Source: Burkholderiales bacterium
GTDB taxonomy: Bacteria; Pseudomonadota; Gammaproteobacteria; Burkholderiales; JAEUOS01
NCBI GenBank assembly: GCA_947473125.1
Contig: CANJDH010000037.1
Coordinates: 1-42,537, forward strand
DNA: 42,537 nt
Direction: 5' to 3'
Positions 1 through 42,537 of this stretch are shown one piece after another; within the stretch, counting starts at the first letter, position 1, and every line of letters starts with the position of its first letter. Both the position numbers and the translations under genes were made by a program. The notes beneath the pieces were generated by a model. That model worked only from the letters and a program-made list of their open reading frames with translations. It made no database searches and was not told the DNA's origin.

Positions 1-305
1 AATGCCTCTCGCAGGAGAGGTGCGTCCGGCGTAGGGAAATAGTGGGGGCAGAGCCCCCTTTCCTCGACAATTTCACCTGATTCGTCATCAAATTGACTTC
101 AATTCCCAAACTTATCGCCTCCACCATCACTTGTTCAGTGATTCCTTAGGTGAACCAGGAATAAGGTGAACCAGGCATCGGCTTGCGTCGAAGGTATTCA
201 GCGCAAGTGTGTCAGGCGCGCATGAACGAGTGGTCCGATTATCAAAAAGGAGGGGGCGACGCCATCCCCGGAAAAAGCGGGTGAAGGGCACGCATTTCAA
301 GGCGC
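1..305. other. Intergenic DNA at left edge with two small hairpins
   Basis: No convincing gene is visible. CCTCTC/GAGAGG arms (5-10 and 15-20) and GGGGGC/GCCCCC arms (44-49 and 53-58, loop AGA, followed by TTTCCTC) form two compact hairpins. The second could be a weak rightward terminator of a gene left of the window. The 12-mer AGGTGAACCAGG occurs twice with a 16-bp period (148-159 and 164-175). Short reading frames here lack ribosome sites and recognisable protein features. Confidence 0.5.
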
Positions 306-1527: not shown

Positions 1528-1584
1528 AAGCGCTCCTTGAAAGGGTTGGCAACGGGACCGCGTGGTCGGGTCGATGACCGTTGT

Positions 1585-1598
1585 TTATCCGATGATAA
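1585..1598. promoter_or_regulatory. Small palindrome between divergent genes
   Basis: TTATC-CGAT-GATAA is a perfect inverted repeat in the 151-bp divergent intergenic space between the amidohydrolase and the dehydrogenase. Similar TTATCG-containing sequences lie upstream of the leftward genes starting at 16068 and 20362. It is a candidate operator; no regulator can be assigned. Confidence 0.4.
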
Positions 1599-1678
1599 CT
1601 TATGGTGTACATTTCGGCGCACGCGTTGCGCTGCGCTTTTATTTTGCGCCGCAACAAATTTGTTTGAGGATGAACGAC

Positions 1679-3997: not shown

Positions 3998-4016
3998 GCA
4001 AACCATTGCCTGCCGG

Positions 4017-4047
4017 AGGGGCGCACGTTGCGCCCCTTCACTTTTTA
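4017..4047 (+). terminator. Intra-operon terminator/attenuator after the receptor gene
   Basis: AGGGGCGCA (4017-4025) and TGCGCCCCT (4029-4037) form a perfect 9-bp stem with a 3-nt loop, followed by TCACTTTTTATT. It separates the receptor gene from the permease genes and is likely to cause partial termination, giving excess receptor. Confidence 0.85.
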
Positions 4048-4062
4048 TTGGGTGACTAAAAC

Positions 4063-8678: not shown

Positions 8679-11051
8679 TCACACCTTCCCCAGGGCGCGC
8701 AGGATGCGCTCTGGCGTGAACGGCTGCTCGGTGACGCGCGCGCTGAGGGTCGAGAGCGCGTCGTTGATGGCGTTCATCACCGCCGCCGGCGCGCCCGCGG
8801 TGCCGGCTTCGCCCGCGCCCTTGGCGCCAAGTTCCGAGGATTTGGTCGGGGTGCATACATGGCCGATCACCATGTCAGGCATTTCGGCCGCCATCGGCAC
8901 CAGGTAGTCGGCCATGGTGGCGTTCAGGAGTTGCCCGGTGTCGTCATACAGGCATTCCTCGAACAGCGCGCCGCCGATGCCCTGCGCAATGCCGCCGCGC
9001 AACTGCTCGTCGACCAGCAACGGGTTGATGATGGTGCCGCAGTCTTCGACCATCCAGTGCTTGAGCAATTTGACAAAGCCGGTGTCGGTGTCGACCTCGA
9101 CGTAGCTGGCCTGGATGCCGTTGGTGAACACAAAGGGCCAGTCACGCTGGCCATACTGGCGCGATACCGTCAGTTCGGGCTGGAACGCGCGCGGCAGGGT
9201 GTCGGGCCGGTACTGGCCGATGCGCGCCGCTTCGGCGAGCGGCAGCAGCACTTCGCCGGTCGCGGCATCAACGATCTGCGCGGCACGCAGGTCAAGACCG
9301 GCGGCGTCGCGCGTGAGGATTGCCGCGGCCAGCGCCAGGATGTTGGCCTTGAGCGTGTGCCCGGCCATCAGCGCGGCTTCGCCGCCGATGCCGGCCGCAC
9401 GCGACGCCCAGGTGCCGCCGCCGTAGGGCGTGACATCGGTGTCGCCGGTAATCACCCGCACATGCTCCACCGGGATGCCCACGGCGGACGCCACCACCTG
9501 CGCGATCATGCCTTCGGTGCCCTGGCCCTGCTCGGTCACGCCGGTGAGCGCGGTGACCCAGCCGGTGGGCTCCAGGCGCAGGGTGCAGCCGTCCTGTGCC
9601 GAGATGCGCGCCCCGCCAACGCCATAGAACAGCGCCGATGGATTGGTTACCTCGATCAGCGCCGCGAGGCCGATGCCGCGGTGGATGCCCTTGGCACGCA
9701 GCGCCTGTTGTTCGGCACGCAGGCCCTTGTAGTCCATCAGCTTGAGCAGCTTGTCGAGGCAGGCATGGTGCGACAGCGCCTCGAACTTCAGGCCCGACGC
9801 CGAGGTGTACGGGTAGTTGTCGTCGGCGATCAGGTTGCGGCGCCGGAATTCCGCCGGGTCTAGCCTAAGCTTTTGCGCGGCGAGGTCCACCAGGCCTTCG
9901 GTGACCGCCACCGCGATCGGGTGGCCCACCGCGCGATACTGGCAGGTCGGCGTCTTGTTCTGGAACACCACCTTGAGGTTGGCCAGGTAGTGCTTGAAGT
10001 CGTAGGGCCCGCCGGTGAGGTTGACCACCTGGTTGCCTTCGACCGCGCTGGTGCGCGGGTACACCGAATATGGGCCGATGCCGGTGAGGTCGTCGAGCTC
10101 GAACGCGAGGATCCTGCCGTCCTTGTCGGTGGCCAGTTTCGCCTTGACCAGGTGCTCGCGCGCGTGGATGTCGGTCGAAAACGATTCAAGCCGGTCGGCC
10201 AGGTAGCGAATCGGCCGCCCCAGCAGCTTGGCGATGCCGGCGATCGCCATTTCGTCGGGGTACACATGCACCTTGATGCCGAAGCTGCCGCCGACATCGC
10301 GGGAAATCACGCGTACGTGCGATTCGGGCAGGTCGAGATGCTTGGCAAAGATGTCGCGCATCATGTGCGGCGCCTGGTTGCCCAGATACACCGTGAGTTG
10401 CTGCTCCGACGGATTGAAGTCCGCCGTGATGGCGCGCGGCTCAAGGCATACCCCGGTGTGCCGGCCGAAGCGGAACGTGTCTTCGACCACCAGGTGCGCG
10501 CCGGCGAATACATCCTGCACGCCGCCGGTATCGACGCCGCGCGTGAACGCGAGGTTGTCGCCCAGGTCGGCGTGGATCACGGGCGTGGCCGGATCGAGCG
10601 CGGTTTCCATGTTGGTCACGGCCGGCAGCGGGTCGTAGTCCACCTCCACCAGCTGCGCGGCGTCTTCGGCCTGCGCGCGGGTTTGCGCCACTACCACGGC
10701 CACGGCCTCGCCTTGCCAGGTGGCGCGCTCGAGCGCCACTGCATATTGCGGCGCCGATTTGAGGCCCTTGAAGTGGGTCAGCACACCGACCCAGGGCGAC
10801 ACGGCACGTGCCACGTCGACACCGGAGCCGCACCAGAATACGCCCTTGGCCTTGCGTGCCGCGTCGAGGTTGAGGTGCACGATTTTCGCGTGCGCGTGCG
10901 GGCTGCGCACGAAGGCCGCATGCAGTTCGCGCGGCAGGCGGATGTCGTCCACATACTGGCCACGCCCGGCGAGCAGGCGCTTGGCGTTGGGGCGCGGCAC
11001 ATCCTGGCCGATGTAGGTGGTGGGCTTCAAGCCCGGCACGGGGGCGTTCAT
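8679..11051 (-). CDS. Xanthine dehydrogenase family, molybdopterin-binding large subunit
   Basis: This 790-residue large subunit of a CoxMSL-type molybdenum hydroxylase binds the Mo-pterin cofactor and the substrate. Visible hallmarks are a QGQGTEG cofactor loop and, near the C-terminus, GAKGAGEAGTAGAPA containing the catalytic Glu. The Cys-bearing active-site loop of true CO dehydrogenase is absent (YRAVGHPIA occurs at the corresponding region). An aldehyde or N-heterocycle hydroxylase is therefore more likely. ATG 11051 overlaps the stop of the iron-sulfur subunit (11048-11051). Gene order in transcription is FAD, 2Fe-2S, Mo subunits. Confidence 0.9.
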   Translation of the reverse strand: MNAPVPGLKPTTYIGQDVPRPNAKRLLAGRGQYVDDIRLPRELHAAFVRSPHAHAKIVHLNLDAARKAKGVFWCGSGVDVARAVSPWVGVLTHFKGLKSAPQYAVALERATWQGEAVAVVVAQTRAQAEDAAQLVEVDYDPLPAVTNMETALDPATPVIHADLGDNLAFTRGVDTGGVQDVFAGAHLVVEDTFRFGRHTGVCLEPRAITADFNPSEQQLTVYLGNQAPHMMRDIFAKHLDLPESHVRVISRDVGGSFGIKVHVYPDEMAIAGIAKLLGRPIRYLADRLESFSTDIHAREHLVKAKLATDKDGRILAFELDDLTGIGPYSVYPRTSAVEGNQVVNLTGGPYDFKHYLANLKVVFQNKTPTCQYRAVGHPIAVAVTEGLVDLAAQKLRLDPAEFRRRNLIADDNYPYTSASGLKFEALSHHACLDKLLKLMDYKGLRAEQQALRAKGIHRGIGLAALIEVTNPSALFYGVGGARISAQDGCTLRLEPTGWVTALTGVTEQGQGTEGMIAQVVASAVGIPVEHVRVITGDTDVTPYGGGTWASRAAGIGGEAALMAGHTLKANILALAAAILTRDAAGLDLRAAQIVDAATGEVLLPLAEAARIGQYRPDTLPRAFQPELTVSRQYGQRDWPFVFTNGIQASYVEVDTDTGFVKLLKHWMVEDCGTIINPLLVDEQLRGGIAQGIGGALFEECLYDDTGQLLNATMADYLVPMAAEMPDMVIGHVCTPTKSSELGAKGAGEAGTAGAPAAVMNAINDALSTLSARVTEQPFTPERILRALGKV

Positions 11052-30459: not shown

Positions 30460-30792
30460 ATGGAATCCCTCCCCATTCCCACCCCGGTGGAACGCGCCAT
30501 CGCGAAACTGGGTAACGATCTTTCCCTGGCGCGGCGGCGCAGGCATATTTCGCAGCAATCGCTGGCTGAGCGGATCGGCGCCTCGTTATCGACCGTCAAG
30601 CGCATGGAACAGGGTGACGTGCGCATTCCATTGCACTTCATTGCGCGCGCCCTGTACGTTTTCGGTGAAATCGAGCGTCTCTCATCCCTTATCGATACTG
30701 CGCAAGACGCCATCGGCCTCACGCTGGCCGATGAACAACTGCCGCAGAGAATCCGTCGCAAAACCAAACGCCTCCCAACGGGTGCCCTGTGA
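30460..30792 (+). CDS. hipB: HipB-like XRE-family antitoxin
   Basis: This 110-residue protein has a helix-turn-helix of the XRE type (ISQQSLAERIGASLSTVKRM, about residues 30-49) and a basic C-terminal tail (RIRRKTKR). It precedes and overlaps the hipA gene by 4 bp (GTGA), the standard order for hipBA. It is expected to hold HipA inactive and repress the promoter 50 bp upstream. The start has no strong ribosome site. Confidence 0.88.
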   Translation: MESLPIPTPVERAIAKLGNDLSLARRRRHISQQSLAERIGASLSTVKRMEQGDVRIPLHFIARALYVFGEIERLSSLIDTAQDAIGLTLADEQLPQRIRRKTKRLPTGAL

Positions 30793-32093
30793 AGCTTCCA
30801 GCCTTGGCCAAAGCCACTGTCAACATTCGCCAAAACGTTGATGTGTGCATCGGCAATGAAGGCACCTTGGTGGGCAGCCTCACCTATGTGCGCCAGGGCG
30901 CGAGGGAAAACACCGCATTTGCTTACGACGCGAGTTGGCTCGCCCGGCCGGACCGATTCGCGGTTTCGCCTGATTTAGGCCTGGCGCCCGAGCATCAGCG
31001 CCGCCGCGCGCCGACTGCCCAGGATTCACCTTTTCACCATGCCTTTGCCGACACCGCGCCCGACGCCTGGGGCAGGCGCGTGATCGCGCGCGATCATGCC
31101 AAGCGCCGTCTTGCCGAAAACCTGCAACCCCTGTCCGAGTTGGACTACCTCTTGGCCGTAGATGATTTCAGCCGCATGGGGGCGCTGCGCCTGCGCGCTG
31201 CCAATGGCAGCTATTTGGGAAACACCGCAGCAGGGCGCCGCAACACGCCGCCTTTGGTCGATCTGCAAAAAATGTTTGATGCAAGCCGGGCGATAGAGCT
31301 AAACAACGAAACCGCTGAAGACCTTCGCTATCTGCAGGGCAAAGGCACCTCGTTGGGGGGCCTGCGCCCCAAATGTACGGTGATTGACAAGAACGGCCGC
31401 CTCTCCCTGGGCAAATTTCCCAGTGTGGGCGACGAGCGCAACGTCACCCGCGCCGAAGTGCTGGCGCTGCACCTGGCAAACAAAGCCGGCATCGAGGCCG
31501 CGCCGTCGAGGATTGAGACGCTGCACACCGTGCCGGTGGCCATCATCGAGCGCTTTGACCGCACCCCCGACGATCTGCGGATTCCCTACTTGTCTGCCGC
31601 TTCGATGCTGCAGGCTTCCCGCAATGAGGAGCGCTCCTATGTGGAGATTGCGGATGCCATGCGCGCCAACTGCGCGCAGCCGCAGGCGGATGTGCGGCAA
31701 CTCTGGCGACGCCTGGTGTTCAACCTCTTGATCACCAACGTGGACGACCATTTGCACAACCTGGGCTTCTTGCACGTGGAGAAAGGCCAGTGGCGCCTGG
31801 CGCCGGCATTCGACCTCAACCCGTTTCCTGACAAGGCCAACGAATCCAAGACCTGGCTTTCTGAGCAGGATGGCCCGGTCACTTCGGTTGCGGCACTCAT
31901 GGCGCGCGCAGCCTATTTTTCGCTGGGGGCCGATGCCGCGCTGCTCATTCTGAAAGAGGTAGTGCAGGCCGTTTCTAACTGGAAAACCGTGGCGACCGGT
32001 GCGGCCGTAGGGTTAACGCCGCAGGAGGTGGCCGGCTTTGCGCCGGCCTTCGAGCATGCCCAGATGGATGCCGCGCGCGCGCTGCTGAACTGA
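30789..32093 (+). CDS. hipA: HipA-family serine/threonine kinase toxin
   Basis: This 434-residue kinase toxin has family landmarks in order: N-terminal couple_hipA region (VGSLTYV), ATP-loop GTSLGGLRPK, catalytic FNLLITNVDDHLHNLGF with the active Asp/His, and the metal-binding APAFDLNP. All key residues are present, so the toxin appears intact. It starts with GTG 30789 inside the end of hipB. Classical HipA phosphorylates glutamyl-tRNA synthetase and induces dormancy; the target here is unknown. A tRNA-Glu gene fragment nearby is probably coincidental. Confidence 0.92.
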   Translation: MKLPALAKATVNIRQNVDVCIGNEGTLVGSLTYVRQGARENTAFAYDASWLARPDRFAVSPDLGLAPEHQRRRAPTAQDSPFHHAFADTAPDAWGRRVIARDHAKRRLAENLQPLSELDYLLAVDDFSRMGALRLRAANGSYLGNTAAGRRNTPPLVDLQKMFDASRAIELNNETAEDLRYLQGKGTSLGGLRPKCTVIDKNGRLSLGKFPSVGDERNVTRAEVLALHLANKAGIEAAPSRIETLHTVPVAIIERFDRTPDDLRIPYLSAASMLQASRNEERSYVEIADAMRANCAQPQADVRQLWRRLVFNLLITNVDDHLHNLGFLHVEKGQWRLAPAFDLNPFPDKANESKTWLSEQDGPVTSVAALMARAAYFSLGADAALLILKEVVQAVSNWKTVATGAAVGLTPQEVAGFAPAFEHAQMDAARALLN

Positions 32094-32134
32094 ACCTACT
32101 CGGTCAAGCTGATCTTCCTGTCATGCGGGTTGAT

Positions 32135-32385
32135 TTCTGGCAGTTGTTGGACAAGAGCGGCAGGCATCTGCAGTTGATCGGGGAAGGAACCAATCCATGA
32201 GCACCACGCAGCCGCCGCTCCCCGTTTCAAAACTACCCGACGCCGACATGCAGGCCGTCTCCGCCGCCCTGGCTCGCGCCGCGCAAAAAGCCCGTGAACT
32301 GGCAGCCCGCACCGGCACCCCGATGATCTATCTGATCGACGGCAAGCTCGTCGAAGAGATGGTCCCGGCGAGCGAAGCAGGGCAG
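32135..32385. repeat. Right copy of the 251-bp direct repeat
   Basis: Matches 28471-28721 in the same orientation. The least conserved part is a stretch of about 25 bp upstream of the ribosome site. It begins 41 bp after the hipA stop. Confidence 0.92.
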
Positions 32386-32388
32386 TGA
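32197..32388 (+). CDS. Small conserved protein, duplicated (copy 2)
   Basis: This 63-residue paralogue of the 28533 product shares the SKLPDADMQA segment, the Ala-rich helix and the IYLIDGKLVEEMVPASEAGQ end; it lacks the last four residues of copy 1. Its ribosome site GGGAAGGA and leader are shared with copy 1. Third-position changes dominate the differences in the core, suggesting selection on the protein in both copies. Function is unknown. Confidence 0.72.
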   Translation: MSTTQPPLPVSKLPDADMQAVSAALARAAQKARELAARTGTPMIYLIDGKLVEEMVPASEAGQ

Positions 32389-32392
32389 TGTT

Positions 32393-32461
32393 TTGACCCT
32401 GTGGCTCACCCCCTGAGCCGCTAGAATGGTCTAGTCAGCCGTAGCAAAAGCGGGCCAGACC
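32393..32461 (+). promoter_or_regulatory. Upstream region of the WYL gene with two small dyads
   Basis: GGCTCA/TGAGCC (32403-32408 and 32414-32419) and CTAGA/TCTAG (32421-32425 and 32430-32434) lie just ahead of the WYL regulator start. TAGAAT at 32422 could be a -10. They are candidate autoregulatory sites. Confidence 0.35.
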
Positions 32462-33127
32462 ATGAACCAGGTAGAACGCCTCTACAAAATCGAGCAACTG
32501 CTGGGCGAGGCGCACACGGTGCCGATTACCGCCATGCTCGAACGCCTGGAAATCTCCCGCGCCACCTTCAAGCGCGACCTGGCCACCCTGCGCGACCGCC
32601 TCAACGCCCCCATCGTGTGGGACCGCTTCGGCGGCGGCTACCGGTTCGAGCCACAGCGCCGCGCCGGGGCCAAGCAGGCCGGGCAGGCCGGGCCGAAGCA
32701 CGCTGGCCCCAAGCACCCCGGGCCGAAGCACCCCAGGCCAACGCACCAACGGCCCGGCCTCTGGTTCAACAGCAGCGAAGCCTATGCCCTGTTGGCGATG
32801 CAGCAAAGCTCAAGGAAATCGACCCCGGCATCCTGGCCGGCCAGATCGAACCATTGGCGGTGCGCCTGCGCGCGCTGCTCGGCAGCAGCGGCGACGACAT
32901 CGCCGAGGTCGAGAAGCGCATCAAGCTCTTGCAGGTGGGCGCACGGCGCGCCAACCCGCAACACTTCAGCCACATCGCCCGCGCCGTGCTCACCCGGCGC
33001 CCCAATCACAAATCGGCAGATCCACTACACCTCACGCGGCAGCGGCGAAGCCACCGACCGCCTGATCTCGCCGCAGCGCCTGGTGAACACGGAGCGGGCG
33101 TTGGAGGCGCATCGGGTGGGGCGGTGA
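32462..33127 (+). pseudogene. WYL-domain regulator, broken (N-terminal part)
   Basis: This gene encodes the N-terminal half of a winged-helix/WYL transcriptional regulator. The HTH (YKIEQLLGEAHTVPITAMLE, then ISRATFKRDLATLRDRL) and the start of the linker are in frame from 32462. The frame then shifts near 32806-32812 (continuing LKEIDPGILAGQIEPL) and back near 33010 (QIHYTSRGSGEATDRLISPQ). After LVN the gene jumps directly to its last 12 residues: about 395 bp present in the second copy (34976-35370) are missing. A Gly/Pro/His/Lys-rich repeat (GPKHPGPKHP) sits in the linker. Two indels plus a deletion make this non-functional unless the indels are sequencing errors. Confidence 0.82.
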
Positions 33128-33210
33128 GTTAGAAAATGCGACGAAATTGGATGGGGTGGATGGCTGGAGAGTGGCTGTGGGAGAGGGGCTACGTGGCATG
33201 CATGGATGGG
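33051..33210. repeat. Left partial copy of the WYL 3' end and flank
   Basis: 33051-33088 is identical to 34938-34975, and 33091-33210 matches 35371-35480 with a few changes and an 11-bp insertion. The match continues about 85 bp past the stop codon into non-coding sequence, so it is a DNA duplication rather than domain similarity. Confidence 0.85.
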
Positions 33211-33303
33211 AGACGCATGTACCAAGGGTTTCCAAAGGTCGCCGCATGGGATGCACACCATGAGCGCCAATGTTCCATCCTCCGCTCGCCAGTGTTTAAT
33301 TAC

Positions 33304-33335
33304 GGCGAATTCGCCACAATTGGACCCGTCCAATT
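33304..33335 (+). promoter_or_regulatory. Two adjoining perfect palindromes before the DUF4062 gene
   Basis: GGCGAATTCGCC (33304-33315) is a perfect 12-bp palindrome. Two bases on, AATTGGAC-CC-GTCCAATT (33318-33335) is a perfect 18-bp dyad. They lie 57 bp ahead of the DUF4062 start in otherwise gene-free sequence and are strong operator candidates. Confidence 0.6.
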
Positions 33336-33391
33336 CCCCGGGTTTGAAACTGGTTGATGAATAATCAGCATTACCCCCAAGGCATAGAGGC

Positions 33392-34931
33392 ATGACGACG
33401 TCTTGCATTTTCATCAGCAGCGTGCAGAAGGAATTGGCCGATGAACGCCGTGCGCTCAAGGCGTTTATCGAAGGTGATGCATTGCTGCGCCGCTATTTCA
33501 CGGCATTCCTGTTCGAGGATTTGCCGGCTGCCGATGTGCGTGCCGATGCCGTCTATCTGGACCAGGTGGACCGCTGCACCGTCTATGTGGGCCTGTTCGG
33601 CAACGACTATGGCTTCGAAGACGCCAAGGGAGTGTCGCCCACCGAACATGAATTCGATCGCGCCGCACTGAAGGCCAAGCCCCGGCTGATTTTGTGTGAA
33701 AGGGGCGGATGACAAGGCGCGGCACCCGAAGATGCTGGCCCTGATTCGCCGCGCCGGCGATCAACTGATCCGGCGCAGGTTCGGCAGTGTGTCGGAACTG
33801 ACGGCTGCGCTGTATGCGAGCCTGGTCGAGCATCTGGAGCGCACCGGCTTGTTGCGGACCCGGCCGTTCGATGCATCCGCATGTCCGGGCGCGACGCTAG
33901 CCGATTTGTCTGACGACAAGATTCGCTGGTTTCTGGACCGGGCCCGGCGCGAGCGTCAATTCACTCTGGCCCGAAACACCGCTCTGCCGGCAGTGCTTGC
34001 CCATCTGGATTTGATTGACGGCGCCGTGCCGACGTACGCCGCGGTATTGTTGTTCGGCACGGCACCGCAGCGTTTCCTGATCACCTCGGAAGTAAAGTGC
34101 ATGCACTTTCACGGCACCGAGGTTCGCAAACCGATTCCGTCGTATCAAATCTACAAGGGCACGGTGTTCGAGCTGGTGGATCAGGCACTCGATTTCGTGC
34201 TTTCCAAAATCGTGCGGGCTGTCGGTACCCGTTCGCAGGGTGCGCAGGCGCCGGAGGAATATGAGCTTCCCCGCGCGGCGATTGCCGAGTCGATTGTCAA
34301 CGCGGTGGCCCACCGTGACTATGCGAGCAACGCCAGCGTTCAGGTGATGCTGTTCGCAGACCGGCTGGAGATCTGGAACCCCGGCGAACTGCCGCCGCCG
34401 TTGACCATGCAGCGTTTGCGCGAGGCCCATCCATCGATCCCGCGTAACCCGCTGTTGGCCGATCCGCTGTTTCTTGCGCGTTACATCGAAAAGGCCGGGA
34501 CCGGAACCATGGACATGATCGCGCAATTGCGCGAGGCGGGGCTGCCCGAACCGGAATTTCGCCAGACCGGCGGCATGTTCGTTCAGGTCTTGTGGCGGGA
34601 CTGGTTAACCGCGGATGCGCTAGCCGCCATGGGGCTCAATGAGAGGCAATTGGCCGCCATGCAGGCGGTGCGCCAGCAGCGCCGCCTGACCAATGCGGAG
34701 TATCAACGGCTTACCGGGGCCAGCCGGCCGACAGCCAAGCGCGATCTCGAAGATCTGGTGAGTCTCGGATTGCTGGTGCCGGGCGGAGCCGGTCGGGGTG
34801 CCTTCTACGCGGTTCCCGCCAAACGGGTCGGAAACGGCTCAAATGGTTCATCCGAAAATGGCTCGGGAAATGGCTCGGAAACGGCTCAAATGGCTCAACG
34901 CAGCAGCAAGACCCGACGCAAGAAGACATGA
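33392..34931 (+). pseudogene. DUF4062/ATP-binding/winged-helix protein split by a frameshift
   Basis: The first reading frame (33392-33712) encodes a DUF4062 domain (CIFISSVQKELADERRALKA ... GVSPTEHEFDRAALKAKPRL). At about 33690-33697 one extra base ends it. The continuation (KGADDKARHPKML...) is in the +1 frame from GTG 33696 to 34931. This second part (411 codons) carries an ATP-binding domain of the AlbA_2-linked HATPase_c_4 type (AAIAESIVNAVAHRDY, ARYIEKAGTGTMDMI), a winged helix (LTNAEYQRLTGASRPTAKRD) and a Gly/Asn/Ser-rich tail. Intact it would be about 512 residues. It is either a recent pseudogene, an assembly error, or a coupled gene pair. DUF4062 occurs at the N-terminus of signalling or defence-type NTPases. 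Confidence 0.78.
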
Positions 34932-35407
34932 GCGCCACCACCGACCGCCTGATCTCGCCGCAGCGCCTGGTGAACTACCGCGGCAATTGGTATGTGGACG
35001 CCTGGTGCCACCTGCGCCGCGGCCTGCGCAGCTTTTCGGTCGATGCCATCCGCAAACTCGACCTGCTGCCCGCCCGCGCCCGCAGCGTGGCCGAGGCGGA
35101 GCTGAAGGACTATTTCGAAACCAGCTACGGCATCTTCTCCGGCCGCGCCACCCGCACGGCCAAGCTGCGCTTCACCCCCAGCCGCGCCCGCTGGGTCGCC
35201 AACGAAACCTGGCACCCGCAACAAAAAGGCGCCTTCGAAGCCGACGGCAGATACCTGCTCACCTTTCCGTATCACCACGACACCGAGCTGGTGATGGACA
35301 TCTTGCGGCACGGGGCGGATGTGGAGGTGGTGGCGCCGGCGGCGTTGCGCACGGCGGTGAAAGGCGCGCTGGAGCGGGCGTTGGGGGCGTATCGGGTGGG
35401 GCGGTGA
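34928..35407 (+). pseudogene. WYL-domain C-terminal fragment (second copy)
   Basis: This 159-codon open frame starts at an ATG overlapping the stop of the DUF4062 gene. It contains only the WYL ligand domain and C-terminal extension of the regulator family: DRLISPQRLVNYRGNWYVDA, WCHLRRGLRSFSVDAIRKL, then AVKGALERALGAYRVGR. It matches exactly the part deleted from the 32462 copy plus the flanks. No DNA-binding domain is encoded, so it is best viewed as the displaced 3' half of a split gene. It could be expressed by coupling as a stand-alone ligand domain. Confidence 0.78.
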
Positions 35408-35570: not shown

Positions 35571-35600
35571 AGCAAAAGGCCCGAAATTTCTAGCGGGCCT
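35571..35600 (-). terminator. Rho-independent terminator downstream of the tRNA-Glu fragment
   Basis: AGGCCCG (35577-35583) and CGGGCCT (35594-35600) form a 7-bp stem. On the minus strand the hairpin is followed by TTTTGCTTTG. It lies 16 bp past the CCA end of the tRNA fragment and was presumably the original tRNA-Glu terminator. Confidence 0.75.
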
Positions 35601-35615
35601 CTGCATTTTCTTCTG

Positions 35616-35653
35616 TGGCGTCCCCACGGGGATTCGAACCCCGGTACTCACCG
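35616..35653 (-). tRNA. 3' fragment of a tRNA-Glu gene (attachment-site scar)
   Basis: Read on the minus strand this is the 3' end of a tRNA-Glu. It has a T arm with GGGGTTCGAATCCCC, the 3' half of the acceptor stem GGGGACG as in bacterial tRNA-Glu (5' partner GTCCCC), and an encoded CCA (35618-35616). The D arm, the TTC anticodon loop and the 5' acceptor strand are absent; upstream sequence is unrelated. A tRNA 3' piece followed by its terminator is the classical footprint of site-specific integration. It is partial, so it is not expected to give a functional tRNA. Confidence 0.8.
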
Positions 35654-35715
35654 GTGCGCGCCTCCGCCGGGGGCGGGCGCGCAAAAACGCGGCGCCCCCG
35701 TCGCGGTCCGATGCG

Positions 35716-36693
35716 TTACTTCCGATAGCTGTCTATCACCGCCTTGCCTTCCGGCCCCGCCTTTTTGAGCCAGTCGGTGAGAATGATCGCTCCCAACTGC
35801 TGAAAGTCGGTCGCGAGTTTGGGCGAGGGCGCGAGCACCTTCATGCCGTTCGCAGTCAGGGTTTTCTTGAAACCTTCGTTCTTTTCCTCGGAGGCCTTCC
35901 ATCCGCGCTTTTCGGCCACCTCGGACATTTTCAGCAGCGCGTCCTGGGTCGGCTTGTCCAGGCTGTTGAAGGCGGACTTACTGACGATCACCGCGGTCTT
36001 GGGAAGCAGGATCTGCATGTCGTACCAGCGGTTGAGTTGCTCGTAGGTCTTGGTATCGACGCCGGTTGCGCTCGATGACATGTAGGAATCGACCATGCCG
36101 GTGGCGAGCGCCTGCGTGAGTTCCGCCTGCTGGATGGTCACCGGCTGTCCGCCGAACAGGTCAGCCATCTTGGCCGTTGTGGGGCTGTAGGCGCGCCATT
36201 TCAGGCCCTTCATGTCGGCAACCGACGCGATTTCCCGCTTGGTGTAGATGCCATGGGGCGGCCAGGCTACAGAGAACAGAAGCTGCATGCCCTGCTCGTT
36301 GAGCTTTTTTTCCAGCAGGGGTTTCTGGATCTGGTAAAGGCGAAAGGCTTCCCTGTAGCCCCGGGCCAGATAGGGGAGGCCTTCCAGACCGTAGATCGGC
36401 CATTCATTCTCATAGGCGAGAAAAAGAACTTCCCCGATCTGCACCTGCCCTCCCTGGACCGCCCGCTTGATTTCCGTTGCCTTGAACAGTGAGGCATTGG
36501 CGTGGACCGAGATCTTGAGCTTTCCCCCGCTTGCCTTGTCGACGTCCTGGACGAACTGGATGATGTTCTCGGTCACGAAATTGGACGTCGGATAAGCGGT
36601 AGGCAAGTCCCACTTGGTCTGGGCCTGGCAGATCAGGGCGGTCCCCATGAGCAGCGAGGCGCATGCAAAGCGTGTCAACAAGCTTGGTTTCAT
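35716..36693 (-). CDS. DctP-type TRAP transporter solute receptor
   Basis: This 325-residue periplasmic receptor is of the TRAP DctP family. The signal peptide runs to about residue 24 (CASLLMGTALICQAQ). The mature protein has KWDLPTAYPTSNFVTENI, ALATGMVDSYMSS and KTAVIVSKSAFNSL in family order. GGAGA precedes ATG 36693 by 7 nt. No DctQ or DctM membrane gene is next to it, so it is an orphan or serves a distant transporter. It is the last gene of the leftward operon with the Lrp regulator and hydantoinase genes. The ligand is probably an organic or amino acid. Confidence 0.9.
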   Translation of the reverse strand: MKPSLLTRFACASLLMGTALICQAQTKWDLPTAYPTSNFVTENIIQFVQDVDKASGGKLKISVHANASLFKATEIKRAVQGGQVQIGEVLFLAYENEWPIYGLEGLPYLARGYREAFRLYQIQKPLLEKKLNEQGMQLLFSVAWPPHGIYTKREIASVADMKGLKWRAYSPTTAKMADLFGGQPVTIQQAELTQALATGMVDSYMSSSATGVDTKTYEQLNRWYDMQILLPKTAVIVSKSAFNSLDKPTQDALLKMSEVAEKRGWKASEEKNEGFKKTLTANGMKVLAPSPKLATDFQQLGAIILTDWLKKAGPEGKAVIDSYRK

Positions 36694-36786
36694 TGAAGTC
36701 TCCAGTACGGTGGGTAAAGCCGGCGATCGGCGTGGGTGGGGGCAAGCTGGTTTCAACACGGGCAATTGTCTTTGGCGCCGGATGAT

Positions 36787-37278
36787 TCATTCATTCGCGT
36801 CCCGCACCAGCGCCAAAGGCAGGGCGGTAGTCCTGGTGACCTCGCGCAGGGCAAAACTCGAGCGCAGCCTCGCGACCCCGGGGATCTGGCTCAGGTGGTT
36901 GCGCAGGAACGCCTCGAAAGCGTCCAGGTCGGCCGATACGACGTGCAACATGTAGTCCCAATCCCCGGTCAGGACATAGGCCTCGATCACCTCCGGAAGC
37001 TTCTTCACTTCCGTCTCGAATTTTGTCAGCGCGGGCATCGCCGCGCTGTGCAGTTCCACCGAGATGAAGGCGTTCACGCCCAAGCCGATCGCGCGCCTGT
37101 TCAGGATGGTCGCGTAGCCCTCGATGACGCCGGCGGCCTCCAGCTCCTTGACGCGGCGCAGGCAGGGGGCCGGAGACAATCCGACGCTAGCCGCGAGTTC
37201 CACGTTGCTGATGCGTGCGCTCCTCTGCAGCGCGTTCAGGATAGCCTTGTCGAACTTGTCGAATTTCTGTGGCTGCAT
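36787..37278 (-). CDS. Lrp/AsnC-family regulator
   Basis: This 163-residue protein has an N-terminal winged HTH (FDKAILNALQRSARISNVEL, then SVGLSPAPCLRRVKELEAAG) and a C-terminal RAM ligand-binding domain (VIEAYVLTGDWDYMLHV). ATG 37278 follows a GGGG-rich ribosome site. It sits 31 bp after hydantoinase B, inside the operon. This position suggests that it senses the operon's substrate or product. The CGCAATATT-like half-sites in the operon promoter are the natural binding candidates. Such regulators commonly respond to amino acids. Confidence 0.92.
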   Translation of the reverse strand: MQPQKFDKFDKAILNALQRSARISNVELAASVGLSPAPCLRRVKELEAAGVIEGYATILNRRAIGLGVNAFISVELHSAAMPALTKFETEVKKLPEVIEAYVLTGDWDYMLHVVSADLDAFEAFLRNHLSQIPGVARLRSSFALREVTRTTALPLALVRDANE

Positions 37279-37309
37279 TGTTCCCGCCCCTAGCTTCGCC
37301 TCAACGAGG

Positions 37310-39064
37310 TCATTCGTGCTGCGCCGCGACTGCCTTGCCTGCGGCCCGCGCCGCATCCACCGTGTCGGAATCTGCATCCGCCAGGACGTCCATTCCGTAG
37401 TACTCGCGCGCGGCCTGGCGCGAAACATAGCCCTGGGCTACATCCCTGGCCACCGAGGCGCGGTCGCGCTCGAGGGGGTTGCCATAGCCAGCGCCGCCGG
37501 GCAGGCTCAGCATCATCCTGTCGCCGGCCTTGATCACCATCTTGCCCTTGGCAACGGCCGGTGCGCCCGAGGCGAGCGCAACGGAGCCGCACTGGCCGTC
37601 GAGGCCGCCAAAGCGCCCCAGTGCCGGATGGTCGATTCGATCAAACATCGAATGATTGCTGATTGCGTTGCCTTCGGAGCCGCCGATTTCGATCATCTGG
37701 CCCAGGCCGCCGCGAAACTTTCCCGGTCCCCCGGAGTCCTCGCGAAGCTCCTTGCGCCAGAAGATGATGGGAGCGATCGATTCGACCACCTCCACCGATT
37801 GCGTGGTGACGCCAGACGGAAAGGCCGTGGCCGACAGGCCGTCCTTCATCGCGCGCGCGCCCATGCCACCGCTGTTGAAGTGATACACCATGAAGTCAGG
37901 CGGCAATTTCCCCGAATACTCCTCGAGGCCTTCCTGCAGCACGCTGGTGCCTCCGCGCAGCAGCGGGTTCCATATGGTCCCTGAACCCTCCGCGAGCACG
38001 CGATCCGGTACGACCTCCTCAAGGCAGGCCATCACCATGTCGGGAACCATGTGGCCGATGATGTGCCGGGCCGCGACCGGCCCGGGTCTCTTGACATTGA
38101 GAATGCAGCCTTCCGGCGCGCTCACGGTGAACGGGCGAAGCGATCCGGAGTTGTTGGGGCAGTCCGGCGCCAGCAGGCACTTGAGTGTGTAGACGGTATA
38201 GGCGGTGGTGTAGTTGAGCACGACATTGATGCCGAATTTGCTCGGTCCCGATGTTCCGTCGTAGTCGACGTGAACGCCCATGTCGTGCACCTTCAGGCTG
38301 GCCTCGAGACGCACCGGAAAGTCGTAGCCGTCGCGTGTCCTCGCCTGCGTCCAGGTGCCGCGCGGCAGCGTCGATAATGCGTCCATCGAGGCGCGGTAGG
38401 ACGTGCGGTCGATGTAGTCCGCCAGATCCTGGAACGACGCGAGGTTGAATTCGGCGGCCATGCGCGCCAGTCGCCGCGCGCCGTCCTCGTTGCATGTCAG
38501 GAGGGACGTCAGGTCGCCCACGACCTGCAGGGGTTCGCGGACGTTCTCGCGGATGATCTCGAGCAGGAGTTCGTTGACTTGTCCGCGGCGCGCGAAGCGC
38601 GCGATCGGGATGAACAGCCCCTCCTCGAATACTTCGCGCCCCTCGGGGCCCAGGCCGCGCCCGCCGATGTCCACCACGTGCGCCGTGGAGACTACGTAGG
38701 CCGCCAGCTTTGCGCCCACGAATACCGGCGTCATGACCGTGAAGTCGTGCAAATGCCCGCACGATACCCATGGATCGTTGGTGATGAAGGCGTCACCCTC
38801 TTCGGTCACGTTGGCCGGAAACTTCTGGATGATGCAGTGGGCGGCCGTCATCATCGAGTTGACGTGCCCGGGCGTTCCGGTGACGGCCTGCGCCATCATC
38901 CGCCCGTCAAGGTCGAACACGCCGACGGAAACGTCGCCCGCCTCGCGCACGGTGGTGCTGAAGGCGGTCCGTATCAGTGTCTGCGCCTGCTCTTCGACGA
39001 CCGCCAGCAGGCGGTTCCACATCAGTTGCTGGTTGATCTGGCTCAGTGACTTGGCGTCATTCAT
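37310..39064 (-). CDS. hyuB: Hydantoinase B/oxoprolinase-family protein
   Basis: This 584-residue HyuB-type subunit works with the HyuA-type protein encoded upstream in ATP-dependent hydrolysis of hydantoins, 5-oxoproline-like lactams, or carboxylation of ketones. Family segments QTLIRTAFSTTVREAGDVSV, GTPGHVNSMM and ITNDPWVSCGHLHDF are clear, as is SGGPGKFRGGLGQ late in the protein. Start 39064 overlaps the hyuA stop by 4 bp (ATGA). The C-terminal 40 residues are Ala/Asp-rich. Which reaction it serves cannot be told from sequence. Confidence 0.9.
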   Translation of the reverse strand: MNDAKSLSQINQQLMWNRLLAVVEEQAQTLIRTAFSTTVREAGDVSVGVFDLDGRMMAQAVTGTPGHVNSMMTAAHCIIQKFPANVTEEGDAFITNDPWVSCGHLHDFTVMTPVFVGAKLAAYVVSTAHVVDIGGRGLGPEGREVFEEGLFIPIARFARRGQVNELLLEIIRENVREPLQVVGDLTSLLTCNEDGARRLARMAAEFNLASFQDLADYIDRTSYRASMDALSTLPRGTWTQARTRDGYDFPVRLEASLKVHDMGVHVDYDGTSGPSKFGINVVLNYTTAYTVYTLKCLLAPDCPNNSGSLRPFTVSAPEGCILNVKRPGPVAARHIIGHMVPDMVMACLEEVVPDRVLAEGSGTIWNPLLRGGTSVLQEGLEEYSGKLPPDFMVYHFNSGGMGARAMKDGLSATAFPSGVTTQSVEVVESIAPIIFWRKELREDSGGPGKFRGGLGQMIEIGGSEGNAISNHSMFDRIDHPALGRFGGLDGQCGSVALASGAPAVAKGKMVIKAGDRMMLSLPGGAGYGNPLERDRASVARDVAQGYVSRQAAREYYGMDVLADADSDTVDAARAAGKAVAAQHE

Positions 39065-41169
39065 AACCGGTTCTCCGCAGATTGCTTCATGGTGCAAACC
39101 AGAAACCCGAAATCGTCGACCGTGGCGACGAACCTGCTGGTGATGACCGATGTCGTTTCATCCTCCTCGATCAGCGCCGGTCCTTCTATCCTGGCGCCGG
39201 GCGCAAGGCCGGCGCGCGCAAAGACCGCGGCCGAAACGTGGCGCGCGCTCGTCGCATCGAACAGATTGCGGTGACCCACGGGGTCGGGAGCGTAGGTCTG
39301 TTCAGTCCTGCACGCCGGAACCTTCAGGAACTCGGTTTGACGCGGCGCGCTGACGGAGAGCGAGATGCCGAGCAACTCGCATCCAAGCCCCGGAATCAGT
39401 CGGCCGTAGAGCCGTTCATACTCGCGCTCGAATTCAATCTGCAGCAGCCGGGCGTCGTCTTCGCCGTAGGTGCGCACCGGAATCGCGATCGGCACCTGGT
39501 GGCCCTGGCCGATATAGCGGATGAATGCCATTCTCCGTTCCATCACCTGGGCCGAATCGCCGGCCTTCAGGACCACCGTCATCGCCCGGTCCCGGATCCT
39601 GTCGATCGCATTGTTCAGGGGCGCGGCGGTGAATTCCGCCAACTTCATGTAGACGCTGGCGGAAATTTCAAATGCGACCGGGGCAAGGAGGAAGCCGACC
39701 GCTGATCCGACGCCCGCGCTGCCGGGAATGACCACCCTGGTGATGCCCAGCTTTTCCGCGACACGAAGCGCGTGCAGGGGCGCCGCGCCCCCGAACGCGA
39801 TCATCGTGTGCCTCGCGACATCCTTGCCGCTCTCGATGCCGTGCACCCGTGCCGCGCTCGACATGTTCTCGTCGACGATTTCGTTGATGGCGAATGCCGC
39901 AAGGTCGATCGAGAGCTCGCTGGGCCGGGCGACCTTCGTTTCGATCGCGTCGCGGGCCGCGGATGCGTCGAGCGGCAGGCGGCCACCTGCGAATCGATCC
40001 GGGTCGATCTTTCCCAATACCAGGTCCGCGTCGGTCACCGTGGGCATGTCGCCACCGAGGCCGTAGCAGGCCGGCCCCGGCTCGGACGATGCGCTCTGGG
40101 GTCCGACCTGTATGTTGCCCAGCGCGTTGACATGGGCGATCGACCCGCCCCCGGCGCCGATCTCGACCATTTCTATGACCGGAATGGAAAGTGGGAGCCC
40201 GCTTCCCTTCTTGAAGCGATATATCCGCGCGACCTCGAATGAACGGGCGGATTGCGGCAGGTAGTTCTCGATGAAGCAGATCTTGGCGGTGGTGCCGCCC
40301 ATGTCGAAGCTCAGCACTTCTCCAAGGCCGAGTTGTTCCGCGATGCGCGCCGAGAATATCGCCCCGCCGGCCGGGCCCGACTCGACTAGCCGCACCGGAA
40401 AGTCGCGCGCGGTATTGATGGTCGTAACACCGCCGCCGGACAGCATCAGGAACATCGGGCACTTGAATCCGGCGTCGTCCAGCCTGACGGAAAGGCGCTC
40501 CAGGTAGCTGCTCATCAAGGGCTGCACGTAGGCATTGGCACAGGCCGTCGAAAAACGTTGGTACTCGCGCATCTCGGGTGAGACTTCGGAAGAAAGCGTC
40601 ACCCGCACGTCCGGCAGCAGGCGCGACAGCACCTGCCTGATCCGTACCTCGTGAGCGGAGTTGATGTAGCTGCTGATCAACCCCACGGCGACGCTTTGGA
40701 CCGCGAGGCGTTCGAGCTCCAGCGCGATGGCCTCGACTTCGCCTTCATCGAGCTGAACCAGAATGTTTCCCTTGGCGTCTATCCTTTCGTTGACGGTGAA
40801 GCGAAGGTCGCGCGGCACCAGCGGCGGCGGCAGGTCTATGTTCAGATCGTATTGCTCGTAGCGGCTCTCCGTGCCCATTTCCAGGGTGTCGCGAAAGCCC
40901 TTGGTGGTGATCAACGCGGTCTTGGCGCCACGTCGCTCGATCAGTGAGTTGGTGGCGAGCGTCGTGCCGTGGACCAGGATTTCAACATCCCCCGGCAGGC
41001 ATGCTGCGCTGGCAAGTATCGACGCGACGCCGGCCATGAAACCGGTCTCGGGATCCTTGCTGGTGGTCAGCACCTTGGTGCTGAACTTGTTGCCGCCGAC
41101 GTGGAGCACCAGGTCCGTGAAGGTCCCTCCGATGTCGACGCTCAGCCGGGCTTTGGCCCTCAGTTCCAT
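39061..41169 (-). CDS. hyuA: Hydantoinase A/oxoprolinase-family protein
   Basis: This 702-residue HyuA-type subunit has an actin-like ATPase fold. The first phosphate motif is DIGGTFTD (residues 12-19), VHGTTLATNSLIER follows, the second phosphate motif is SFDMGGTTAK, and GAGGGSIA is also present. It couples ATP hydrolysis to ring opening by HyuB. The 10-bp overlap with the dehydratase gene upstream and 4-bp overlap with hyuB show a tightly coupled operon. Length and motifs are complete. Confidence 0.92.
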   Translation of the reverse strand: MELRAKARLSVDIGGTFTDLVLHVGGNKFSTKVLTTSKDPETGFMAGVASILASAACLPGDVEILVHGTTLATNSLIERRGAKTALITTKGFRDTLEMGTESRYEQYDLNIDLPPPLVPRDLRFTVNERIDAKGNILVQLDEGEVEAIALELERLAVQSVAVGLISSYINSAHEVRIRQVLSRLLPDVRVTLSSEVSPEMREYQRFSTACANAYVQPLMSSYLERLSVRLDDAGFKCPMFLMLSGGGVTTINTARDFPVRLVESGPAGGAIFSARIAEQLGLGEVLSFDMGGTTAKICFIENYLPQSARSFEVARIYRFKKGSGLPLSIPVIEMVEIGAGGGSIAHVNALGNIQVGPQSASSEPGPACYGLGGDMPTVTDADLVLGKIDPDRFAGGRLPLDASAARDAIETKVARPSELSIDLAAFAINEIVDENMSSAARVHGIESGKDVARHTMIAFGGAAPLHALRVAEKLGITRVVIPGSAGVGSAVGFLLAPVAFEISASVYMKLAEFTAAPLNNAIDRIRDRAMTVVLKAGDSAQVMERRMAFIRYIGQGHQVPIAIPVRTYGEDDARLLQIEFEREYERLYGRLIPGLGCELLGISLSVSAPRQTEFLKVPACRTEQTYAPDPVGHRNLFDATSARHVSAAVFARAGLAPGARIEGPALIEEDETTSVITSRFVATVDDFGFLVCTMKQSAENRL

Positions 41170-42122
41170 TTGAGTCCGCGAAGCTGTTCAAGCTTGAGAT
41201 TGCCCCCGCTGAGGACGCATACGACCTTCTTGCCGGGAGGGATGGCGATACGCCCGGTCATCAAGGCGCACACGGTCGCGGCGGCGGCGCCCTCGGTGAC
41301 GAGCTTGCAGCGTTCCATCAACCAGATGATGGTGTCGAAGATCTCCGTGTCGTCGACCAGGACGATGTCGTCGACGAACTGCTTCGCCACCGCCAGGTTG
41401 TATTCGCCCACCTGCCTCACCACGAGGCCGTCGACCACGGAAGTGACGCTGGGCAGGGTGATGCGCCTGCCCTCGGAAATCGACCGCTTCATCGCCGGTG
41501 CGCCGGTGGACTCGACGCCGATCACCTTGACCGAGGGCTTGACAGCCTTGAGCGCCATCGCGACACCGGAAATCAATCCGCCGCCGCCAATCGGAACAAT
41601 CACATAGTCGACGTCGGGCACGTCCTCGATGATTTCCAGTCCGACCGTGCCTTGCCCCGCAACCAGGCGCGGGTTGTCGAATGGATGAATGTAGGTCAGC
41701 CCTCGCTCGGCCTGGATTTCAAGAGACTTGGCATAGGCGTCATCCCAGATCTCACCGTGCTGTACCACGGTGGCCCCGTAGCCGCGTGTCGCGTTGACCT
41801 TGGCCTGGGGGGCATTCATGGACATCACCACCGTGGCGGGAATTCCATGCACCCGTGCGGCGTAGGCCACGCCTTGCGCGTGGTTCCCTGCAGATGAGCA
41901 AATGATGCCCTTGGCCTTGTCGTCCGCGCTCATGTGCGCAAGCACGTTCAGCGGCCCGCGTATTTTGTATGAGCCCGTCTTCTGAAAGAGTTCGGCCTTG
42001 AGCAATACCTTGGCGCCGGTCATCTCGGACAAGGTCTCGCTCTCCAGGATGGGGGTGCGGTGAATATGCTTCTCCGCAACCGCGCGTGCGGCAACGAAGT
42101 CTTCTTTTCGCAATGGAATCAT
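41160..42122 (-). CDS. PLP-dependent threonine/serine dehydratase family protein
   Basis: This 320-residue fold-type II PLP enzyme is of the catabolic threonine dehydratase / serine racemase / hydroxyaspartate ammonia-lyase group. The PLP Lys is Lys53 in KTGSYKIRGP, SSAGNHAQG contacts the substrate carboxylate, and the glycine loop GGGGLISG holds the phosphate. No regulatory ACT domain is present, as in the catabolic and racemase branches. ATG 42122 is chosen because the upstream sequence is AT-rich promoter DNA. It is the first gene of the operon with hyuA, hyuB, the Lrp regulator and the DctP receptor. Deamination of a hydroxyamino acid released by the hydantoinase is one possible role. Confidence 0.88.
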   Translation of the reverse strand: MIPLRKEDFVAARAVAEKHIHRTPILESETLSEMTGAKVLLKAELFQKTGSYKIRGPLNVLAHMSADDKAKGIICSSAGNHAQGVAYAARVHGIPATVVMSMNAPQAKVNATRGYGATVVQHGEIWDDAYAKSLEIQAERGLTYIHPFDNPRLVAGQGTVGLEIIEDVPDVDYVIVPIGGGGLISGVAMALKAVKPSVKVIGVESTGAPAMKRSISEGRRITLPSVTSVVDGLVVRQVGEYNLAVAKQFVDDIVLVDDTEIFDTIIWLMERCKLVTEGAAAATVCALMTGRIAIPPGKKVVCVLSGGNLKLEQLRGLKWN

Positions 42123-42139
42123 ATTTTTGTAATTCAATT

Positions 42140-42260
42140 CGCAATAAATAGAAAATAATCGAGACCTTTGCGCAATATTGTAAATCCTCATTTGTATCCA
42201 CATATTGCGGATTTGAGGTCGTGCGAAGGCCGATCCGCAAGCAACGCGAATATTTGCGGG
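42140..42260 (-). promoter_or_regulatory. AT-rich promoter with repeated CGCAATATT half-sites
   Basis: CGCAATAT (42171-42178) and ATATTGCG (42212-42219) are inverted, with dyad arms about four helical turns apart. Further related sites are CGCAATAA (about 42140-42147) and the near-palindrome CGCGAATATTTGCGG (42245-42259). The base composition is far more AT-rich than the flanks. Spaced, weakly conserved dyads are what Lrp/AsnC octamers bind, and such a regulator is encoded in the operon. Confidence 0.6.
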
Positions 42261-42287: not shown

Positions 42288-42480
42288 CTAGTTTGCGGCA
42301 GCGTGGACGATGCGTCGCATGCCGGCGGCGGCACAGTCTTCCGGCCCGGTGCGGGCCGTCATTCCCGCCACGACGAACGCGTTGGAATTGACCTGCTCCC
42401 TATAGCCGTACCAGTCATTTCGCAGACCATCCCAGCCCCAGTGTCCACCCTCGAACATGCGGTATAGCGCCCCCAAATGC
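42288..42480 (-). other. Possible coding remnant, no recognisable gene
   Basis: A minus-strand frame ending at 42288 reads through RMFEGGHWGWDGLRNDWYGY and GMTARTGPEDCAAAG with reasonable codon use. Its only upstream start (TTG 42515) lies inside a terminator hairpin, and an in-frame TGA lies just before it. It is either chance or the tail of a gene whose front was lost. I do not recognise a family. Confidence 0.2.
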
Positions 42481-42506
42481 AAAAAGCCCAACCGTGATGG
42501 CTGGGC
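42481..42506 (-). terminator. Terminator of a leftward gene beyond the right edge
   Basis: On the minus strand GCCCAGCC and GGTTGGGC form an 8-bp stem (one G-U pair) with a 5-nt loop, followed by five T residues and GC. It should end a transcript entering from the right of the window. Confidence 0.75.
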
Positions 42507-42537
42507 CAATTGCAAGAATCACAACAACAATTCGGTG

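Follow-up and report, generated by a model that had tools for sequence, protein, structure and literature searches.

Why would a bacterial contig carry half of a transfer RNA (tRNA) gene, followed by a terminator, next to a catabolic operon? The stretch in question (the window, 42,537 nucleotides) is the whole of contig C37 in the draft genome of a Burkholderiales bacterium (labelled G000; 209 contigs, 97% complete), and its minus strand holds the 3' half of tRNA-Glu at 35616-35653. A first reading, made from the letters of this DNA alone (the sequence-only reading), saw in this fragment the scar of an integration and expected inserted DNA to its right, up to a complete tRNA-Glu with an integrase gene beside it. 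We consider it about 70% probable that the 38 bases are a displaced tRNA-Glu 3' half and belong to a composite additive island, anchored at tRNA genes and made up of cassettes without an integrase. How could the half gene have been displaced? What bounds the DNA beside it? And is a recombinase in sight?

The tRNA-Glu fragment and its terminator

Two features of the window raise the question:

35616-35653, minus strand: 3' half of tRNA-Glu(TTC) without the 5' half, beginning at the 3' edge of the anticodon loop and ending with the CCA; 100% identity over 38 bases to C74:7516-7553
35575-35602, minus strand: terminator hairpin directly 3' of the tRNA-Glu fragment; fold -14.3 kcal/mol, z -2.6

Is the fragment truly a piece of tRNA-Glu? 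A search of the bacterium's own genome found its exact copy (E 6.7e-13) on another contig, as the 3' half of an intact tRNA-Glu(TTC) gene at C74:7478-7553. The suffix common to fragment and gene is exactly 38 of 76 bases and begins at the last base of the anticodon loop. Upstream, the 38 bases before the fragment agree with the 5' half of tRNA-Glu at 9 of 38 positions, which is the chance level; downstream, 12 of the 60 positions agree with those after the intact gene. Since the next-best ungapped match of the 38-mer in the whole window is 22/38, the fragment is not a product of chance. ARAGORN found no complete tRNA in the window, and an Rfam scan of it gave no match at the gathering score. 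The half gene that the sequence-only reading described is therefore there as described, and so is, elsewhere in the genome, a complete tRNA-Glu having in common with it the predicted stretch of about 38 bp. An island targeted to a tRNA gene is expected to show a direct repeat of that gene's 3' part, the complete gene standing elsewhere in the genome; such a repeat is present here at full identity. A second, decayed tRNA-Glu fragment was looked for near the HIBADH-like gene at the left end of the window and was not found.

The hairpin is more stable than its shuffled counterparts (mean -8.0 kcal/mol). A consensus terminator scan of the window reported no terminator, possibly because of its loop limit of 8. 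By eye, a hairpin stands soon 3' of the tRNA-Glu CCA in many, not all, of the Burkholderiales genomes inspected, including one of the same family (G001), so that a hairpin in this place is of the native type, in keeping with the native-looking terminator noted earlier. What follows the intact gene? On C74 no terminator comes directly after the CCA; repeat-bearing DNA stands there instead (TAAATATC..., with short direct repeats of the CTTGGGTAAATTCTGGGTAAT type and a hairpin about 60 bases on), and a tRNA-Asn 3' half begins 121 bases beyond the gene. In viral contigs the C74 repeat motif had three matches, mutually near-alike, the parts read being without tRNA or terminator; an exact 37-base tRNA-Glu pattern had 0 matches there.

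Other tRNA 3' halves in the genome

Is the tRNA-Glu fragment alone? The tRNA-Asn gene, intact at the start of C101 and on C171, also occurs as five 3' halves:

C74:7675-7720: tRNA-Asn 3' half with the shared terminator unit
C137:~302-346: tRNA-Asn 3' half with the shared terminator unit
C137:9790-9821: tRNA-Asn 3' half with the shared terminator unit; the copy at the right edge of the window
C101:~4011-4057: tRNA-Asn 3' half with the shared terminator unit
C19:17885-17933: tRNA-Asn 3' half with a hairpin other than the shared terminator unit

One terminator unit is thus common to four of the five, and the exception, on C19, has at 17.9 kb a hairpin that by eye is like the DNA after tRNA-Asn in two genomes of the family (G003 and G004). 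In the terminator-bearing copies the homology reaches the end of the terminator; C74, C171, the intact C101 gene and the first C137 copy have about 40 further bases in common past it, partly gapped. C101 also holds a strongly decayed tRNA-Asn fragment, and C19 a terminator without a tRNA at 47.9 kb. ARAGORN called a 68-base tRNA-Asn at C19:17862-17929 (L078:7862-7929), which is the 3' half joined to unrelated 5' sequence and could be mis-annotated as a tRNA gene.

Two further tRNA species are represented by 3' fragments. That of tRNA-Ser(TGA) (C23:~8764-8818) shares the strand of the intact gene and lies 1.7 kb downstream from it; a tRNA-Asp 3' fragment (C6:~168-215) lies near its contig start. 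Where do the breaks fall? In five of the eight fragments the position can be counted exactly, and all five values, between nt 28 and 39, place it at the anticodon loop or next to it: tRNA-Asn at nt 31 (C74), nt 32 (first C137 copy) and nt 28 (C19), tRNA-Asp at nt 30 and tRNA-Glu at nt 39. In the second C137 copy and the C101 and tRNA-Ser fragments, changes near the CCA make the break uncountable.

Several stretches of the genome share one layout: a tRNA 3' half, mostly with its terminator, then cargo, then another tRNA 3' half; no integrase was seen in the intervals. Tandem accretion is indicated by tRNA 3' ends of the same orientation that separate different cargo, as found on C101 (intact tRNA-Asn, a fragment at about 4.0 kb, the decayed one at about 5.9 kb), on C137 and, by overlap, from C137 into C37.

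The right edge of the window

Because the window is a complete contig, nothing beyond 42.5 kb is directly readable. What, then, lies at its end?

42476-42537, minus strand: end of a tRNA-Asn 3' fragment with its terminator, forming the contig's right edge; 95% to the tRNA-Asn terminator unit, fold z -3.8
42419-42537, minus strand: exact 119-base overlap with the end of C137 (9820-9938), which holds the rest of the tRNA-Asn fragment

C37 and C137 overlap within the end of a tRNA-Asn 3' half and its terminator; the hydantoinase cassette thus ends on the right in a tRNA-Asn scar. On C137 a second tRNA-Asn 3' half is found 9.5 kb upstream of the one at the window edge. The interval between the two encodes an MmgE/PrpD protein, two TctC receptors, a TauD-type dioxygenase, a GntR regulator, an amidase and, below cut-off, a PuuE-like protein; the search for tyrosine recombinases gave no match in it. 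C137 has the most deviant composition among the stretches compared. The sequence-only reading expected a complete tRNA-Glu beyond 42.5 kb; the intact gene does exist in the genome (C74), but the neighbour given by overlap shows tRNA-Asn fragments and no tRNA-Glu.

tRNA 3' halves in related genomes

Forty other genomes were compared, four of them of the same family (G001 to G004) and none of the same genus; a gltX scan of genome contigs kept 80 of 246 loci, among which one (L204) was recognised as the family genome G001. Is the scar shared by relatives, as the sequence-only reading would have counted against itself? Matches to tRNA-Glu were found in 35 of the 40 (none listed for G002, G003, G033, G036 and G040). 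Among the matches listed, just one covers no more than the 3' half, in G039, at 76% identity and 3.3 kb downstream of its Ala-Glu pair; the scar is not a conserved arrangement.

For tRNA-Asn, matches limited to the 3' half (from query position ~31-40 to 78-88) occur in at least 10 of the 40 (G004, G010, G013, G018, G021, G029, G031, G037, G038 and G039, of which G004 and G039 were partly inspected). G038 has no full tRNA-Asn match among the matches listed. G039, of the same order and with a genome of 2.2 Mb, has at least 12 tRNA-Asn 3'-half-like matches (81-93%) and 10 tyrosine recombinase matches (contigs concerned: C2, C3, C11, C15, C20, C22, C23, C35, C38 and C40); some fragments and recombinases lie within a few hundred bases of each other, and a repeated motif follows some of the fragments. 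An exact pattern of the tRNA-Asn/terminator junction had 0 matches in genome contigs, a set that possibly does not include the own genome.

The most telling arrangement is in G004, of the sister genus. There an intact tRNA-Asn is followed in the same direction by a tyrosine-recombinase frame of 386 codons, whose first ATG lies about 80 bases after the CCA. The frame is succeeded by 9.4 kb of prophage-like DNA, where inspection points to a tape-measure-like protein, and then by a tRNA-Asn 3' half with terminator. After a further 2 kb, in which one gene looks substrate-binding-like by inspection and no tyrosine recombinase match was found, comes a second 3' half with a nearly identical terminator. 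This array supports the use of tRNA-Asn by a recombinase in the family, and it places recombinase-less, terminator-bounded DNA in a second genome.

The same genome carries a serine-recombinase-like open reading frame (ORF) on C85 (L144:5971-7473, minus strand), named by inspection, whose 3' end reads through tRNA-Glu; that tRNA-Glu is the boundary of an element containing the ORF, with ParA/ParB-like genes, again by inspection, behind the ORF.

Recombinases in the own genome

Which enzyme could have made these scars? The integrase gene predicted beside tRNA-Glu failed to appear: the draft has three PF00589 proteins, XerD (C91), XerC (C63) and an integron integrase (C112), each above the family-model cut-off, and none of these tyrosine recombinases lies on the contig of a tRNA-Glu or tRNA-Asn fragment, beside an island end or as a tycheposon's own enzyme; this search of the own genome did not extend to serine recombinases. 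The integron integrase is encoded at C112:7899-8501 on the minus strand (L116:1351-2556, L137), with 478 bits to TIGR02249 against a cut-off of 265.

The probable cassette to the right of the fragment

All cassette genes, from 35716 to 42203, are on the minus strand:

35716-36765, minus strand: TRAP transporter substrate-binding protein (DctP), stop codon 62 bases from the fragment; Pfam PF03480
36787-37428, minus strand: Lrp/AsnC family regulator; Pfam PF01037
37310-39097, minus strand: hydantoinase B / oxoprolinase subunit, end overlapping the AsnC ORF; listed ORF, Pfam PF02538
39061-41169, minus strand: hydantoinase A / oxoprolinase subunit (HyuA); Pfam PF01968 and PF05378
41160-42203, minus strand: threonine/serine dehydratase-like enzyme dependent on pyridoxal phosphate; Pfam PF00291, TIGR01127 just above cut-off

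Is this DNA foreign? Among the matches listed for the four family genomes, a limit that holds for all such percentages below, the best match is 44% for the dehydratase and 51% for HyuA; for comparison, a conserved amidohydrolase at the left end of the window reaches 61-80% and the HIBADH-like gene 53-65%.

The left side of the fragment

Is the DNA to the left the original downstream flank of tRNA-Glu? It falls into two blocks and one gene of special interest:

30789-35407, plus strand: left neighbour block with HipA-like protein, HTH protein, AlbA/RecG-like protein and WYL/WCX regulator; Pfam, HTH below cut-off
400-21506, no strand assigned: family-conserved block with amidohydrolase, HIBADH-like, transporter genes, xanthine-dehydrogenase-like, TctC and others; tblastn to G002-G004 loci, ~55-87%
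1562-2578, plus strand: HIBADH-like gene, its G001 relative 50 bases downstream of tRNA-Glu

In G001 the order is gltX-Ala-Glu-terminator, then HIBADH at 50 bases. The best match of this HIBADH in the own genome is window 1679-2569 (337 bits versus 122 for the next), 33 kb from the tRNA-Glu fragment, a weak sign that the original tRNA-Glu flank gave rise to the left end of the window. Content and local order of 0.4-21.5 kb are kept in G004 and G003, and in G002 only those of 0.4-7.4 kb. The block is permuted: in the sister genus the 0.4-8.6 kb part has the genes of 8.7-21.5 kb on its opposite side, and in G004 their own order differs too.

Beyond the block, HipA, next to the terminator, has a best family match of 34%, and the AlbA/RecG-like gene has none in the four family genomes among the matches listed (down to E ~6e-12). 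The gene at 25.0-25.7 kb has relatives of 65-69% in three of the four (G001, G002 and G003), in other neighbourhoods. In the search with the genes of 21.5-28.4 kb, TctC and CoA-transferase-like paralogues crowded the match listing. With such a mixture, both sides of the scar may hold acquired DNA. A plain native flank on the left, as the sequence-only reading had it, keeps the support of the G001 gene; it is weakened by an order that stops at 21.5 kb and by HipA and AlbA/RecG-like genes without close family matches.

How the island may have been built

From these arrangements we infer a recombination mechanism, a linkage of C74, C137 and C37, a foreign origin of the cargo and an order of events. 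Site-specific insertion of DNA, in the anticodon loop of tRNA-Glu or next to it, would have displaced the gene's 3' half together with the terminator, and the incoming DNA would have rebuilt a full tRNA-Glu at its other end, presumably the C74 copy. The DNA to the right of the scar (DctP, AsnC regulator, hydantoinase A/B, dehydratase) would then be a catabolic cassette of a composite island bounded by tRNA-Glu ends, its far edge being the tRNA-Asn 3' half with terminator, and another such cassette would come next on C137. How would cassettes accumulate? A recombinase like that of G004 may insert circles at the anticodon loop, each insertion rebuilding the gene and pushing the old 3' half away; the simplest explanation of the several stretches is that insertions at tRNA anticodon loops were repeated, with the recombinase acting in trans or since lost.

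A number of observations weigh against this composite island. No phage-type tyrosine integrase was found in a draft that is 97% complete, serine recombinases not having been searched there, and no relic of the G004 tRNA-Asn recombinase appeared in the 11 own-genome loci tested (the query gave a 13-residue tRNA read-through in four of the 11 and a weak match in the C112 integrase). Fragment and intact tRNA-Glu stand on separate contigs, neither the end of C74 nor the start of C137 has a match elsewhere in the own genome, and no joining overlap was found. The overlap with C137 sits in a repeated unit, so a different neighbour is possible. On the left, the family-conserved order ends at 21.5 kb, short of the fragment, and the link to the original flank is weak because the G004 counterpart of the conserved gene pair at the left end of the window lies on a contig other than that of tRNA-Glu. 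Nor is the cargo clearly foreign. DctP has matches of 59-63%, at least one in each of the four family genomes, and the 51% of HyuA is close below the values of the conserved HIBADH gene; a foreign origin is, on these comparisons, suggested for the dehydratase, weakly indicated for HyuA and not supported for DctP. In composition, 35.66-42.5 kb does not fall outside the range seen in the remainder of the window, with own-genome loci around tRNA genes as reference, and neither base nor tetranucleotide composition separated the blocks of the window. The earlier proposal of a scar with an insert to its right is partly supported: the 38-base duplicate, the C74 copy without a direct terminator, a fragment that relatives do not share and the moderate family matches of two cargo enzymes (HyuA and the dehydratase) stand in favour, and DctP stands against.

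A bolder version of the proposal, which we regard as speculative, would make the tRNA 3' half with its own terminator and a catabolic operon an integrase-less mobile cassette of this betaproteobacterial family. Such a cassette would originate from the joining, by a recombinase, of a displaced 3' half with another site of this sort. An intact tRNA-Asn would then receive it, in trans, at the anticodon loop; tRNA transcription would stay terminated, and integron-like arrays of genes for nutrient use would build up.

Alternative explanations

Could recombination among repeats account for the pieces? The tRNA-Asn and tRNA-Glu pieces would then have spread by homologous or illegitimate recombination, the 3' half with terminator serving as a hot spot, in place of site-specific integration. 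The repeats do extend beyond the tRNA through the terminator (about 105 bases and more), a greater length than att cores require; the sister genus has the family-conserved block in a permuted order, and the missing phage-type tyrosine integrase fits as well. Homology would not favour breaks at or beside the anticodon loop, where the measured 5' breaks of tRNA-Asn, tRNA-Glu and tRNA-Asp all fall, and in G004 a tyrosine recombinase frame adjoins the tRNA-Asn that heads the array. We consider this explanation rather unlikely.

A simple, single island with its own integrase, running from 35.66 kb rightwards to the intact tRNA-Glu, with an untouched flank on the left, appears improbable. It accords with the orientation of fragment and terminator, with the existence of the intact tRNA-Glu and with the G001 gene beside tRNA-Glu, whose best match is in the window in matching order and orientation. 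It sits badly with a right neighbour that by overlap begins with a tRNA-Asn fragment, with the draft's lack of a phage-type tyrosine integrase and with a family order that is lost at 21.5 kb on the left.

Might the fragment have been retained because it serves the TRAP/hydantoinase transcript as a tRNA-like 3' end, in processing or stability, its GC-rich neighbour acting as a new 5' half? A sub-threshold mascRNA match at 35620-35674 on the minus strand (38.7 bits, gathering score 42.5) and the still unmutated 38 bases would agree with this, but the 60-base stretch folds with ordinary stability (z -1.39, equalled by 18 of 200 shuffles), its minimum-energy form is not tRNA-like, and the 38-base identity fits a recent origin equally well, all of which makes such a role very improbable.

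An artefact of assembly or binning is scarcely credible either: the draft is in 209 contigs and both window ends fall in shared 119-base words (window 1-119 is identical, in the same orientation, to the first 119 bases of C159, so the left end too is a repeat or branch point), but the 38-base repeat is far shorter than the assembly word of about 119, as judged from contig overlaps, which makes a chimeric join at it unlikely, the fragment lies 6.9 kb inside the contig, and tRNA-Asn 3'-half matches occur in other genomes too.

Relation to known systems

Fragments of tRNA genes left by the integration of mobile elements were reportedly described by Williams in 2002. The published systems are compared here through excerpts of the respective papers. 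Additive flexible genomic islands (fGIs) at tRNA genes are described for Alteromonas, as fGI1 (PMC4119200), and in a further study (PMC5217437), and the fGI-2 of Methylophilaceae has repeats of the last 20 nt of tRNA-Lys (PMC10872708). As in such islands, the target is a conserved tRNA to which metabolic or resistance cassettes are added successively (PMC4119200, PMC10872708), and, as in fGI-2, tRNA 3' ends are repeated in varying number (PMC10872708). Unlike what these excerpts describe, the repeat here is mostly the 3' half with terminator, sometimes more, and several tRNA species are involved in one genome, a tRNA-Asn fragment lying 6.9 kb from the tRNA-Glu scar.

The asn-tDNA islands of Klebsiella pneumoniae are composite and grow by tandem accretion (PMC4891358). 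They have the tRNA-Asn hot spot and the composite build in common with the islands described here, which differ in their catabolic cargo and unrelated host. The groups without an integrase gene (VIII, IX and XII) have longer flanking repeats (up to 148, 39 and 35 bases), whose origin and meaning the authors call unclear (PMC4891358). Tycheposons, as presented in PMC10872708, likewise carry tRNA-associated cargo DNA with metabolic payloads; they have a tyrosine recombinase (xerD), while here only XerC, XerD and IntI were found, away from the contigs of tRNA-Glu and tRNA-Asn fragments. Integration remnants as known from PMC9897764 resemble the present case in having a 3' fragment at one end and the complete gene elsewhere, and differ in that here the ends are unlinked, the fragments several and no phage-type tyrosine integrase was found. 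As for an integron cassette array, the integron integrase lies on C112 and the tRNA-Glu and tRNA-Asn fragments on other contigs. A literature search on tandem genomic islands with tRNA fragments and the anticodon loop found no paper; absence from print is not claimed.

Significance

Additive islands anchored at tRNA genes are a known kind. What is special here is the terminator within the repeat, the several tRNA species and a draft without phage-type tyrosine integrases. The terminator-bearing tRNA repeats between integrase-less cassettes are similar to a feature for which the Klebsiella asn-tDNA study had no explanation (PMC4891358). Should the units be mobilised in trans, a scan of genomes for tRNA 3' halves with terminators would bring up mobile operons that are missed by integrase-based island finders. 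For the bacterium itself, whose lineage is rich in TctC-type receptors, the arrangement suggests how small catabolic operons could plausibly build up with no mobility genes in view.
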